From NCBI GenBank assembly GCA_902509695.1, contig CABWYP010000002.1:47561-111560 (forward strand): a DNA stretch of 64,000 nucleotides, given 5' to 3'. The translations under genes and the position numbers were made by a program. The notes beneath the pieces were generated by a model. The model saw nothing but the letters and a program-made list of their open reading frames with translations. It searched no databases and was not told the DNA's origin. The stretch's first letter is position 1. The number at the start of each line of letters is the position of its first letter. The DNA is from an uncultured Alphaproteobacteria bacterium (GTDB lineage Bacteria > Pseudomonadota > Alphaproteobacteria > HIMB59). Positions 3,883-7,680 of this stretch are shown here, one piece after another.

Positions 3883-3943
3883 GTTTCAAATTATCTAAAA
3901 CTTAAAGTGTTTAGTGAGATGCTAATTTTTAGCCATAATTAAT

Positions 3944-4084
3944 ATGGTGGACCAAATATCCAAGAATTGGAACACCCAGTACTTACTGCTATTAAAATAT
4001 AAAGATCATTTACAAAATGCTCAATATATTAATAAAAACCAACAAGATCAGGAACTATATGATACAGAGATAGTTGATTATTAA
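3944..4084 (+). CDS. Short hypothetical ORF (46 aa) at start of accessory region
   Basis: ATG...TAA open frame MVDQISKNWNTQYLLLLKYKDHLQNAQYINKNQQDQELYDTEIVDY; no homology evidence. Confidence 0.25.
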   Translation: MVDQISKNWNTQYLLLLKYKDHLQNAQYINKNQQDQELYDTEIVDY

Positions 4085-4110
4085 CACCACATGGATACCC
4101 AGATATAGAG

Positions 4111-4500
4111 ATGTCAAAAAACCTCAATGAAAGTCAACTTCTAGCAGTTCAGTTAGTAGCTCAAGGGAGATCAGGGAGAGAAATAGCAAAACAATTGGGT
4201 GTAACTGAAGAGACAGTCTCAAGGTGGAAAAAACAACCAGCGTTTATCGCAATGGTTAACGACCTTCTAGGACAGTTGAGAGATACCACACAGCAAAAAA
4301 TGAGAAACTTAGTTCTTCTGGCCTTGGAGATATTAGAGAAAGAACTATCCAATAAAGATAATAAAAACAGTGTAAATATTGCTCTTAAAGTAATCAATAG
4401 CTACAAATTCAGTACCTTAATAGACCAGAAAATAGGCCCAGAGAATGCTGATACGATTGAGCGAAAGCAGTTGGATAAAAAGTTTGCAGAGATGTTCTAG
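4111..4500 (+). CDS. Helix-turn-helix protein, phage terminase small-subunit/phBC6A51-like
   Basis: GRSGREIAKQLGVTEETVSRWKKQPAF HTH followed by a helical region, typical of terminase small-subunit-like proteins. Confidence 0.6.
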   Translation: MSKNLNESQLLAVQLVAQGRSGREIAKQLGVTEETVSRWKKQPAFIAMVNDLLGQLRDTTQQKMRNLVLLALEILEKELSNKDNKNSVNIALKVINSYKFSTLIDQKIGPENADTIERKQLDKKFAEMF

Positions 4501-4517
4501 ATTTCTTAAAGTTAACT

Positions 4518-5354
4518 ATGTTTAAAAATTTTTTCACTCTATCCCTACTTCTCTTTTATTTAATTTTTTTAGGATGTACAAGCACTCCTGAAGAGAAAGA
4601 CAACTACTGGAATAAAGTAGGAATGAAAAAAGGTCCTTCTATTACTAGTGGTTCACTAAAAAAATTTTCAAATCACTATATTTGTACAAATTGTCATTAT
4701 AACTACATCAAAGCTGATGTAATAAAGTTTGTACCTAGTGGTGCTGGTAGTTATCAATCAACAGTTTGGGCAATATATCTGAAAGGTAATTTCACTTACC
4801 AAATAGATATGCTTATGAACTATAGTTTTAATAATAAATTTGAAATAAGTGGAATTTACAATGCTCCTCCTATCTCTGATGAGTTTATACAATATCCATT
4901 TATTCCAAGTAACTCAACAGTAAGCGTTGCAGGATTTAATTTTCAAACCGATAGAAGTTATAAAAATAAAAAAGAACTCGATAATTACATTACCCAAAAA
5001 CTTTTTGTTCTTAAACAAGAAGAAAGTATTAATAGAATAAACAATTCTTGTAGTAATTTTGGCTTCATTAAGGGAACTGAGACCTATGAAAAATGCGTTT
5101 TTCAAATAATGGATACAGAAAGACAACTTGCGTTACTAGAAGCCCAAATCAAGGCAAATAACTCAAAAGAAATTGACATCTATAATCTTATGCAAAACGA
5201 TGTTTTAGAAAATCAACTTCTACTTCAAAATAGTATTGATTTACTAAGATTAGGGACTGAACTTCTAACTCCAGATACCAGTAGCACAAATGGTTATCAA
5301 AATATTCCACCGATTAGATGTATAGTAAATCCAGTTGGCTGGACTTGTTTGTAA
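4518..5354 (+). CDS. Putative lipoprotein of unknown function
   Basis: N-terminal hydrophobic segment and lipobox-like IFLGC; single CTNCH motif; stop overlaps the start of the next gene (TAATG). Confidence 0.65.
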   Translation: MFKNFFTLSLLLFYLIFLGCTSTPEEKDNYWNKVGMKKGPSITSGSLKKFSNHYICTNCHYNYIKADVIKFVPSGAGSYQSTVWAIYLKGNFTYQIDMLMNYSFNNKFEISGIYNAPPISDEFIQYPFIPSNSTVSVAGFNFQTDRSYKNKKELDNYITQKLFVLKQEESINRINNSCSNFGFIKGTETYEKCVFQIMDTERQLALLEAQIKANNSKEIDIYNLMQNDVLENQLLLQNSIDLLRLGTELLTPDTSSTNGYQNIPPIRCIVNPVGWTCL

Positions 5355-6787
5355 TGAAAACCCTCTTAGCTCTATTGTTACTAATCCCTAGTTTGAGTTG
5401 GGGGTTAACATTCAAAGATGGTGAGCAGACTGAAGATGATACTCCAAATTCTTTTGAAAAATCAAATAATTCTCAAATAGATGGAGCATATCTCTTAAAA
5501 TGGGAAACATTATTTTTTTCAGATGATAAAAAAACAATCATTGACAGTGAACCAGATGCGATTGATGAAGTCATTTTTGTGAATGGAAAGGTTAAGAATA
5601 TAACTTTCAATGATGGAGTGTTGATTACAAATAAGTACAGGAAAAGTACAAAAATTAAACTAAAAAAAGACGATATTATTATTACTGGAAATTTAGATAT
5701 AGATTGCGATTGTCCAGTAAAAGTAAAAATTATTTTGAAAAAGAAAATTCAAGATAATTTAGTTATCTATGAAGGAATGGCTCCTTGGGGTGAACAAGAC
5801 TCTACAGAATATATTAAAGCTACTCTTACACAGTTATCTTCTGATAATTCAGCATTTTTAGGTGACTTATATAAAAAAAATCTTGGAATAGAAAATCCTA
5901 ATGACACAACATTACAAGGCTGGAATGACTGGGAAGTTACAGGTAAAAAGGAGATGCAAGCATATGAAAATAAAAAAAATATTAAATTATTTTCTGTTGT
6001 AAATTCACCAACTCGGTTTGGAGAAACATCTTTTTTTATTCAAGCCCCAGGAGACGAATGTTTTCAAAGAGATGAGGATTGTAAACGCTTAAATGGTGAA
6101 AAACAAAAAAGAGTTGAGGCAAGACATGATACTGGATTTGAGGGAAATGTTTGGATTAGCTCTTCTTTATATTTACCTGATACATTTGAAATGCCAACTA
6201 TGAAAAAAACACTTTTACAATTTCATAGTGACTACGCCTATTTACCACCAATGTTTATGTTTGATATAATTAAAAGTAGGGGTTTAATTTGGACTCATGA
6301 ATCAGCTAAAGGTATTAATTTACATCCAGAAGGTAATATTCATTGCTCCGCAGGTGCTGGTTTTGATAATAACGATAAACATCAATTTTGTAGTGCAGAA
6401 TTCCAAGAATACTCAATTCTAAAAACTGATGAGATAAAAAGAAATAGCTGGTATGACTTTGTCTTTAATATTAATTTTGATAATAAAAATATAAATCAAG
6501 CTTTTCATAAAATTTGGATGAACGGTAAACTTGTCATATCAAAAAACAATCAAACATTATGGGAACAGTTACCTGGAATTGAAATAAATAAAAATAAGGT
6601 AGCATTTCATTTTGGTATCTACGGACCTTATTTAGATAAATCTCACCAAGAATATTTTGCAGATGAAATACATTTTTCTAGAAATTGTGAAGATTTGGGT
6701 ATAGATAATCTAGGTTATTCTTGTAAAGCATTAATCTCCCAACAAATAAAAGAGTCAGTACCTTCTAGAAAACATTATGGATATTAA
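5354..6787 (+). CDS. Secreted polysaccharide-lyase-like (heparin lyase/PF14099-like) protein
   Basis: Signal peptide MKTLLALLLLIPSLSWG; lyase-like features VEARHDTGFEGNVWISSSLYLPD, WYDFVFNINFD, IWMNGKLV, FHFGIYGPYL. Start placed at ATG 5354 rather than the track's 5318. Confidence 0.6.
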   Translation: MKTLLALLLLIPSLSWGLTFKDGEQTEDDTPNSFEKSNNSQIDGAYLLKWETLFFSDDKKTIIDSEPDAIDEVIFVNGKVKNITFNDGVLITNKYRKSTKIKLKKDDIIITGNLDIDCDCPVKVKIILKKKIQDNLVIYEGMAPWGEQDSTEYIKATLTQLSSDNSAFLGDLYKKNLGIENPNDTTLQGWNDWEVTGKKEMQAYENKKNIKLFSVVNSPTRFGETSFFIQAPGDECFQRDEDCKRLNGEKQKRVEARHDTGFEGNVWISSSLYLPDTFEMPTMKKTLLQFHSDYAYLPPMFMFDIIKSRGLIWTHESAKGINLHPEGNIHCSAGAGFDNNDKHQFCSAEFQEYSILKTDEIKRNSWYDFVFNINFDNKNINQAFHKIWMNGKLVISKNNQTLWEQLPGIEINKNKVAFHFGIYGPYLDKSHQEYFADEIHFSRNCEDLGIDNLGYSCKALISQQIKESVPSRKHYGY

Positions 6788-7096
6788 AAATATGGTGCCG
6801 CCGAGAAGAATCGAACTTCCGAAGAGGATAGTTCTGACAAGCTTGAAAATTATCTACCTGAATTTCTCAGTAAATTCAGAAATCTAGATGATCATTGGAA
6901 ATCACTCGAACCAAAATATAAAAGAGATTTAAATGGGTTGGTTTTTCCTGATGGATTCTCATTTACATTAGACAAAAAAATTACAACACCCAAATTATCT
7001 ATACCTTTCAACGATTACAGAGAAAATTTTAATGATAAAAGTAATTTGGTGGAGCCAAGGGGGATCGAACCCCTGACCTCTACGCTGCCAGCGTAG
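6788..7096 (+). pseudogene. C-terminal remnant of a large serine recombinase/resolvase, reading antisense into tRNA-Ala
   Basis: Open frame from TAA at 6785 to TAG at 7094 with no start codon: ...EEDSSDKLENYLPEFLSKFRNLDDHWKSLEPKYKRDLNGLVFPDGFSFTLDKKITTPKLSIPFNDYRENFNDKSNLVEPRGIEPLTSTLPA. Resembles large serine recombinase C-termini. Confidence 0.65.
6793..6823 (-). other. Detached tRNA 3' end fragment (T arm, acceptor 3' strand, CCA)
   Basis: Reverse complement CGGAAGTTCGATTCTTCTCGGCGGCACCA: T stem GGAAG/CTTCT, TTCGATT loop, CGGCGGC-A-CCA; no D or anticodon arm follows. Confidence 0.7.
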
Positions 7097-7122
7097 CGCT
7101 CTCCCAGCTGAGCTATGGCCCC
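7047..7122 (-). tRNA. tRNA-Ala (anticodon GGC), CCA encoded
   Basis: GGGGCCATAGCTCAGCTGGGAGAGCGCTACGCTGGCAGCGTAGAGGTCAGGGGTTCGATCCCCCTTGGCTCCACCA folds as a full cloverleaf. Confidence 0.97.
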
Positions 7123-7268: not shown

Positions 7269-7577
7269 TTACCCCTCTAAAGTCAAAGGCTCAGGGAAGT
7301 TGGTAAAAGCATTATCAGAAATTGGAGTCATTACAGCTGAATTTACATCTACAACCTCAGCTCTTCGCTTGGTTAACTCTTCATCTGATTGAAATTTTTG
7401 TAAGTGCTCCTTAGATTGAAAGTGCATAACTGTATTTAATATGGTTTCATCGTTTGCTTGAGTTCCTGCAAATATAAAAGTCATTCCATATTCTTTTAAT
7501 TTATCGCCATTTTCTTGAACCATTTTTTTCCATTCTTGAAAATCTTTAATCAACTTAATCTGTCCTAGTACTAACAT
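7269..7577 (-). CDS. Conserved small protein, possibly ferredoxin-like/ABM-type fold
   Basis: Intact 102-aa ORF, mixed alpha/beta pattern; no motif recognised with certainty. Confidence 0.6.
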   Translation of the reverse strand: MLVLGQIKLIKDFQEWKKMVQENGDKLKEYGMTFIFAGTQANDETILNTVMHFQSKEHLQKFQSDEELTKRRAEVVDVNSAVMTPISDNAFTNFPEPLTLEG

Positions 7578-7680
7578 TTATAATCTCCTTTTTATCTAAT
7601 AATCACCCACATAATCCATTTCTTCAACATAAATTTTACACCTACAATCAAGGATTATAATTACGTTATCTGATATAGGT

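Follow-up and report, generated by a model that had tools for sequence, protein, structure and literature searches.

The window analysed in this work is a stretch of 64,000 nucleotides (nt) from the genome of an uncultured alphaproteobacterium, and the analysed region (window 3883-7122) lies between dhaK and a tRNA-Ala(GGC) gene. A decayed integrative element of about 3.1 kb occupies 3944-7046 of this region, at the 3' end of the tRNA-Ala gene. One of its genes, which encodes a secreted lyase-like protein, starts with about 50 nt of signal-peptide DNA, hereafter the block, that is found genus-wide as a recombination junction. The block was missed by an earlier note on this DNA and is the most interesting feature here. 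The genome of the window is a fragmented assembly (1.0 Mb, 65% complete). The sample contains one genome per species and includes 52 genomes of the genus, apparently HIMB59/AEGEAN-169, that are mostly single-cell amplified (AG- genomes). Genomes of the genus are denoted by G and fetched loci by L, and tRNA genes were called by ARAGORN. The features of the region are listed below with their lengths in amino acids (aa); ORF denotes an open reading frame, HTH helix-turn-helix and TerS terminase small subunit.

3940-3955, no strand: left attachment-like repeat AATATGGTGGACCAA, an imperfect copy of the tRNA-Ala 3' end AATTTGGTGGAGCCAAG
3944-4084, + strand: 46-aa ORF (MVDQISKNWN...EIVDY), conserved as an ORF in G048 and G049 according to aligned translations
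4111-4500, + strand: TerS-like/HTH protein, 129 aa (PF13384, E=1.7e-8; phrog_2538 terminase small subunit, E=6e-9)
4518-5354, + strand: orphan lipoprotein, 278 aa, with the lipobox LGC assigned by eye
5354-5404, + strand: shared signal-peptide DNA block MKTLLALLLLIPSLSWG, the first ~50 nt of the lyase gene
5354-6787, + strand: secreted polysaccharide-lyase-like protein, 477 aa (PF14099, E=1e-14)
6793-6822, - strand: tRNA-Thr(GGT) 3' end fragment, tRNA positions 46-75, 29/30 identical (97%)
6824-7096, + strand: putative C-terminal remnant of a large serine integrase, an open frame running into tRNA-Ala
7047-7122, - strand: tRNA-Ala(GGC), the right attachment site (ARAGORN)

The interval between dhaK and tRNA-Ala(GGC) is an insertion hotspot. 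The interval is near-empty in G037 (146 bp) and G029 (277 bp) and measures about 715 bp in G042, G034, G040, G013, G019, and G039. It is filled in the window (3.2 kb), G049 (4.4 kb), G048 (5.6 kb), G038 (15.8 kb), and G016 (about 22 kb). The filled interval of G049 aligns with G042, whose site is empty, as far as an imperfect repeat of the tRNA-Ala 3' end, and the alignment resumes at tRNA-Ala. Because the window carries the same repeat at 3940-3955, the element extends from about 3944 to 7046. An intact tRNA gene and a displaced partial copy of it are present together with an empty site in relatives (G037, G029, and the G042 type). The window, G049, and G048 have in common the 46-aa ORF and the TerS-like gene at the dhaK end and the integrase C-terminus at the tRNA end. 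The nucleotide identity of the ORF-plus-TerS region to the window is 82% in G049 and 91% in G048, and G016 retains broken pieces of both the TerS-like gene end and the integrase C-terminus.

These findings are consistent with the earlier note, which had described a small decayed integrative element bounded by tRNA sequence and had listed a tiny ORF, an HTH protein, a lipoprotein, a lyase, a TAATG overlap, a tRNA 3' end, and a recombinase remnant, all of which are present. The comparison of empty sites that it had called for found that the gene order is not conserved in all relatives and that near-empty intervals of 146-715 bp exist, with the integrase remnant at one end of the element and the TerS-like gene at the other. 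The accessory insertion between dhaK and tRNA-Ala stands, with its start moved from 3883 to about 3944, where the tRNA-Ala 3' end is imperfectly repeated. The detached tRNA 3' end is present at 6793-6822 and derives from tRNA-Thr, not tRNA-Ala.

The lyase-like product that the note had named is recovered by profile search, where the PF14099 score of 55.4 bits lies above the gathering cut-off of 29.9. Its closest relatives are found in G028 and G011 (80-83% aa identity), where 3 bp separate the stop codon of the lyase from the intact 3' end of tRNA-Thr(GGT). The nucleotide identity between the window lyase and those of G011 and G028 is 87-89% for the mature part, 61% for the signal peptide, and 22-43% upstream. 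Starting at the end of the signal peptide, the homology covers the rest of the lyase gene with its stop codon and continues into the tRNA-Thr 3' end, where it breaks off. In the window this tRNA-Thr 3' end is followed by the integrase remnant. Because the homology spans both the lyase and the tRNA-Thr 3' end, the window lyase cassette is a relocated relative of the tRNA-Thr cassettes. The window lyase has the signal-peptide sequence ATGAAAACCCTCTTAGCTCTATTGTTACTAATCCCTAGTTTGAGTTGGGG, unlike the G011 and G028 lyases, and its own signal peptide appears to have been replaced by the shared ~50-nt block. No relative of the lyase was found in viral contigs, and a sequence search of the PDB returned no usable relative. 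In the window's own genome the tRNA-Thr locus (L093), at which relatives carry lyase cassettes, has no lyase and shows an orphan scar at 7548-7580 that consists of the block start without a gene.

The cargo of the element is a mosaic in which the lyase belongs to a cassette pool that is also present at tRNA-Thr and other tRNA genes. The lipoprotein, whose stop codon overlaps the lyase start (TAATG), has no Pfam, NCBIfam, or significant PHROG match, and homologues are absent from the 52 genomes of the genus and from viral contigs. A fixed cargo pair of lipoprotein and lyase was considered and rejected, as the lipoprotein lacks a homologue in the genus and the closest lyases at tRNA-Thr stand without a lipoprotein. 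The two-gene surface or glycan cargo proposed earlier is thus not upheld.

The block is present in 42 of the 52 genomes of the genus, and the other 110 genomes of the order yielded one weak partial match. The exact block pattern was found among 84,980 species in 20 stretches, all of them from AG- single-cell genomes, and in none of the viral contigs. The 62 genes with a good block fall into 31 mature-protein clusters without detectable mutual similarity, as defined by BLASTP linkage at E<0.01, by which remote homologues may be merged or split. The mean nucleotide identity between clusters is 84% in the block and 32% in the 51 nt on either side, upstream and downstream alike, which is background. 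Control signal peptides from the same genomes have a mean identity of 44%. Codon identity at degenerate positions of the block is 0.78 against 0.36 expected from codon usage, and the maximum of 2000 simulations is 0.42. Since this synonymous identity is far above expectation, the block is shared DNA and not convergence at the protein level.

The proteins joined to the block include PF14099 lyases, a protein of PF05426 (alginate-lyase family), FG-GAP repeat proteins, a dienelactone-hydrolase-like (DLH) protein, and a putative metallopeptidase of DUF4344; many others are small and match no family. Ordinary paralogy, in which an old family kept its signal peptide, diverged fast in its mature parts, and exchanged nothing at the signal peptide, would account for the LTFKDG motif that follows the block in several clusters and for the similar early cysteine of many small proteins, and some clusters may be remote homologues. 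However, the partners belong to different Pfam families with different known folds, the synonymous codons are shared, and near-identical mature genes have unrelated upstream flanks while near-identical flanks have unrelated genes. We therefore regard paralogy as very unlikely.

The reassortment is illustrated by three loci at tRNA-Arg(TCG). L061 and L077 share 92% identity upstream, 96% in the block, and 32% downstream, that is, like flanks with different genes. L061 and L072 share 30% upstream, 86% in the block, and 98% downstream, that is, like genes with unrelated flanks. The reassortment at this tRNA gene has a four-gamete pattern. One hydrolase cassette occurs both at tRNA-Arg(TCT) of G019 and at tRNA-Asp of G042, with 1401 identical nt; the identity begins inside the block, and the sequence upstream is unrelated. 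A lyase cassette that is present in G048 and absent in G049 has both ends in block copies, and its flanks are 99.4-99.7% identical. Fourteen of the 90 block copies are orphan scars without a gene behind them, and one block copy of G049 is joined directly to the integrase remnant.

The exchange points within the block differ, as the L063-type lyases keep their own 3' signal-peptide part, whereas the switch lies near position 27 in the hydrolase cassette and near position 41 in the window lyase. These varied points favour homologous recombination over a fixed cut site. The block could also be a dedicated site for a site-specific recombinase, integron-like or transposon-like, instead of passive homology. 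Such a site would agree with the sharp block edges in many genes (5' edge ATG, 3' edge TGGGG), the persistence of orphan scars, and the two scars in which the block abuts sequence like a tRNA 5' end. However, the exchange points scatter inside the block, no recombinase stands consistently beside it, and as a single strand it folds no better than shuffled sequences, for which reason the idea that a hairpin makes the block a single-strand recombination site was also rejected. A dedicated site is thus quite unlikely in our judgement. The form in which the export tag would be the attachment site of a secretome-shuffling system, with the recombinase supplied in trans from tRNA islands or phages, is likewise an unlikely one; if true, it would be a coding-sequence counterpart of integron cassettes.

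The block junctions could also be chimeras of whole-genome amplification or misassemblies induced by a repeat, as nearly all of the genomes are single-cell and a repeated 50-mer is a plausible site of template switching. Three block junctions recur near-identically in the genomes of two or three different species, and this is evidence against the junctions being artefacts in general. The cassettes are also intact ORFs in tandem arrays whose start and stop codons overlap or abut, and the single-contig genome G029 bears a diverged block on an FG-GAP gene. An artefact as the general explanation is accordingly held to be highly improbable. The diverged block of G029 lies on a 607-aa FG-GAP protein (L130:7141-8964), with no tRNA in the 14-kb stretch fetched, and is a possible ancestral source of the block.

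The block genes are associated with tRNA genes, with a tRNA within 3 kb (<=3 kb) at 39 of 43 loci. The statistical test of this association took a density of about 32 tRNA genes per 1.4 Mb as its assumption. The tRNA fragments found comprise 17 5' halves that end at position 37-44 and seven 3' halves that start at 30-32, and these halves are cut around the anticodon loop. Two tRNA 5' halves are present in each of L077 and L100, which suggests stacked insertions. In L077:5362-9242 and L100:5149-7858, integrase-less intervals of 1-2.5 kb are stacked between tRNA-Arg(TCG) 5' halves cut at the anticodon loop. Most tRNA intervals with block genes lack an integrase, from which the window element differs in its serine-type remnant. 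Loci of two kinds carry tyrosine integrases, tRNA-Ala in G047 and tRNA-Arg(TCT). A 4.7-kb island at L040:9001-13742 contains an intact tyrosine integrase, block-bearing genes, and a tRNA-Ala 5' half, and is a candidate autonomous form. In two scars (L069:5833 and L094:356) the block runs straight into the tRNA 5'-like sequence TTGGGGCCATARCTCAGCTGG, which is followed by ordinary DNA.

The integrase remnant of the window is 58-59% identical to a G048 fragment over 87-88 aa, and the G048 fragment matches the phrog_95 integrase (E=2e-8). No recombinase match to the fragment was found in Pfam. In other Alphaproteobacteria, more distant relatives occupy open frames of about 550 aa, several of which terminate at or inside tRNA-Arg(CCG) or tRNA-Ala(GGC). 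A coiled coil followed by an FPDG motif, together with the phrog_95 match and the matches of the relatives, points to the C-terminus of a large serine integrase. The recombinase remnant reported earlier is hence retained, with its type corrected to a probable serine integrase.

The earlier assignment of a TerS-like HTH protein agrees with the PF13384 and phrog_2538 matches listed above. The gene has a ratio of nonsynonymous to synonymous substitution rates (dN/dS) of 0.05 against its G049 homologue, which indicates purifying selection; it is internally deleted in G048 and broken in G016. The window element could be a degenerate phage satellite in which the TerS-like protein would redirect the packaging of a helper phage, and this would be compatible with recombination at the block. 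The TerS-like gene beside the left attachment site (attL), the integrase remnant beside the right one (attR), and the purifying selection speak for a satellite, and PICI and PICMI satellites are similarly small and also have their integrase and a TerS-like gene at opposite ends. However, the HTH matches transposase, sigma-factor, and terminase profiles at similarly weak levels. A PDB sequence search gave weak HTH matches only, the similarity in viral contigs is confined to the HTH region, and phage records contain one weak terminase match and no close relative. No other phage or satellite gene is present in 3944-7046, where genes for replication, regulation, or capsid redirection were not found, and the integrase of this element is a serine-type remnant. 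A satellite origin is less likely than not.

Other observations concern the surroundings of tRNA-Ala. G016 and G028 (L038 and L046) have a large common gene set between dhaK and tRNA-Ala that includes cluster c2, to which the ABC-type ATPases of the window belong. A small DUF1330/DUF3764-like protein adjoins tRNA-Ala at window 7269-7577, and clustered relatives of it are also found in tRNA-Arg(TCT) islands (L065, L078, and L088). In G049 the 5' side of tRNA-Ala carries a further insertion (L036:5536-10553) that ends in a tRNA-Ala 5' half. Its products are an HNH plus HIT-domain protein and others of unassigned role, which are perhaps defence-related.

We consider it likely that the window contains a decayed tRNA-Ala element with mosaic cargo and that the block acts as a hub for homologous recombination through which secreted cargo is shuffled among tRNA islands. 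The cargo is reassorted at the block and relocated between tRNA loci, and homologous recombination would be the mechanism. A large serine integrase that targets tRNA genes, of which the C-terminus alone remains, may have inserted the window element, and islands of this kind would deliver DNA to tRNA genes. With several block copies in the population, homologous recombination in the block would place new mature genes in frame behind a start and signal peptide that are already there. A mature secreted protein of any kind could thereby be coupled to any flank or promoter upstream, or to any cassette that precedes it, and the product would be exported. Cassettes could in this way be gained or lost, accumulate in stacks, and move from one tRNA locus to another, and the scars would be products of deletions by recombination at the block. 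The pool of lyases, esterase-like hydrolases, FG-GAP proteins, a peptidase-like protein, and small cysteine-containing secreted proteins probably diversifies the secretome, and Pfam matches suggest that its function may be glycan degradation or surface variation.

Several points weigh against this interpretation. The attL repeat is short and imperfect and is modest evidence on its own, although its position is set by the empty-site alignment. The integrase fragment of the window alone gives a weak, unrelated PHROG match, and its assignment depends on the G048 homologue. The genomes are mostly single-cell amplified, so that any one junction could be an amplification chimera, including the tRNA-Thr/integrase junction of the window, and the window junctions at 5354 and 6822 are known from one assembly only. 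Recombination is deduced from reassorted sequences. The lyase is a putative one, identified by its profile match, and the AlphaFold models are poor, with a mean predicted local distance difference test (pLDDT) of 44 for the lipoprotein and 35 for the lyase.

Terminal reassortment of type III effectors was reportedly described by Stavrinides et al. in 2006. The term is used in PMC2669295 and others. The likeness lies in the recombination of a secretion-signal 5' end onto unrelated downstream coding sequence, as one 5' secretion-signal DNA is found here on non-homologous 3' parts (31 clusters, four-gamete pattern). The difference is that one near-identical Sec-type block has been reused ~30 times across the genus, with arrays, scars, and tRNA islands and with no type III system. 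No description of a shared or reassorting bacterial Sec signal peptide was found in the literature searched.

The element resembles the tRNA islands of Islander (PMC4383910) in the intact tRNA at one end, the displaced fragment or att repeat at the other, the integrase (here a putative C-terminal remnant), the cargo, and the empty sites, and many islands of the genus have tRNA halves cut at the anticodon loop. It differs in that several intervals here are 1-2.5 kb without an integrase and the cargo shares the signal-peptide block. The 5' tRNA fragments dominate here (17/24), compared with 159/3919 Islander islands (PMC4383910). Only tyrosine integrases were known in 2014 to target tRNA genes (PMC4383910), whereas the window element has a putative serine-type integrase remnant. 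Tycheposons of Prochlorococcus, and those of Methylophilaceae described in PMC10872708, measure 4-200 kb and carry metabolic cargo. They are likewise found in marine streamlined bacteria with a tRNA border and variable cargo, and a tyrosine recombinase is present at some loci here (L040 and L065). However, most islands here are smaller and their cargo genes encode secreted proteins joined at a shared signal-peptide block, and the window element has a serine-integrase remnant in place of the tyrosine recombinase that defines tycheposons together with the tRNA border. No tRNA was found at the phosphate islands studied in the HIMB59 island paper (PMC10734472). Integrons also have arrays of exchangeable cassettes, but the shared element here is coding sequence without an attC-type folded site, and no integron integrase was seen at the loci examined, although no search of the genomes with an IntI profile was made.

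Streamlined ocean bacteria keep variable gene islands, and the gain and movement of new secreted proteins in them are poorly understood. If the block is a hub of homologous recombination, it would explain how whole secreted enzymes are swapped between tRNA loci, in frame and exported, in a streamlined genus. The 50-mer block would also serve as a search handle with which to explore the variable secretome of an abundant marine group, and it would offer a case in which the terminal reassortment of Sec-type signals can be tested.

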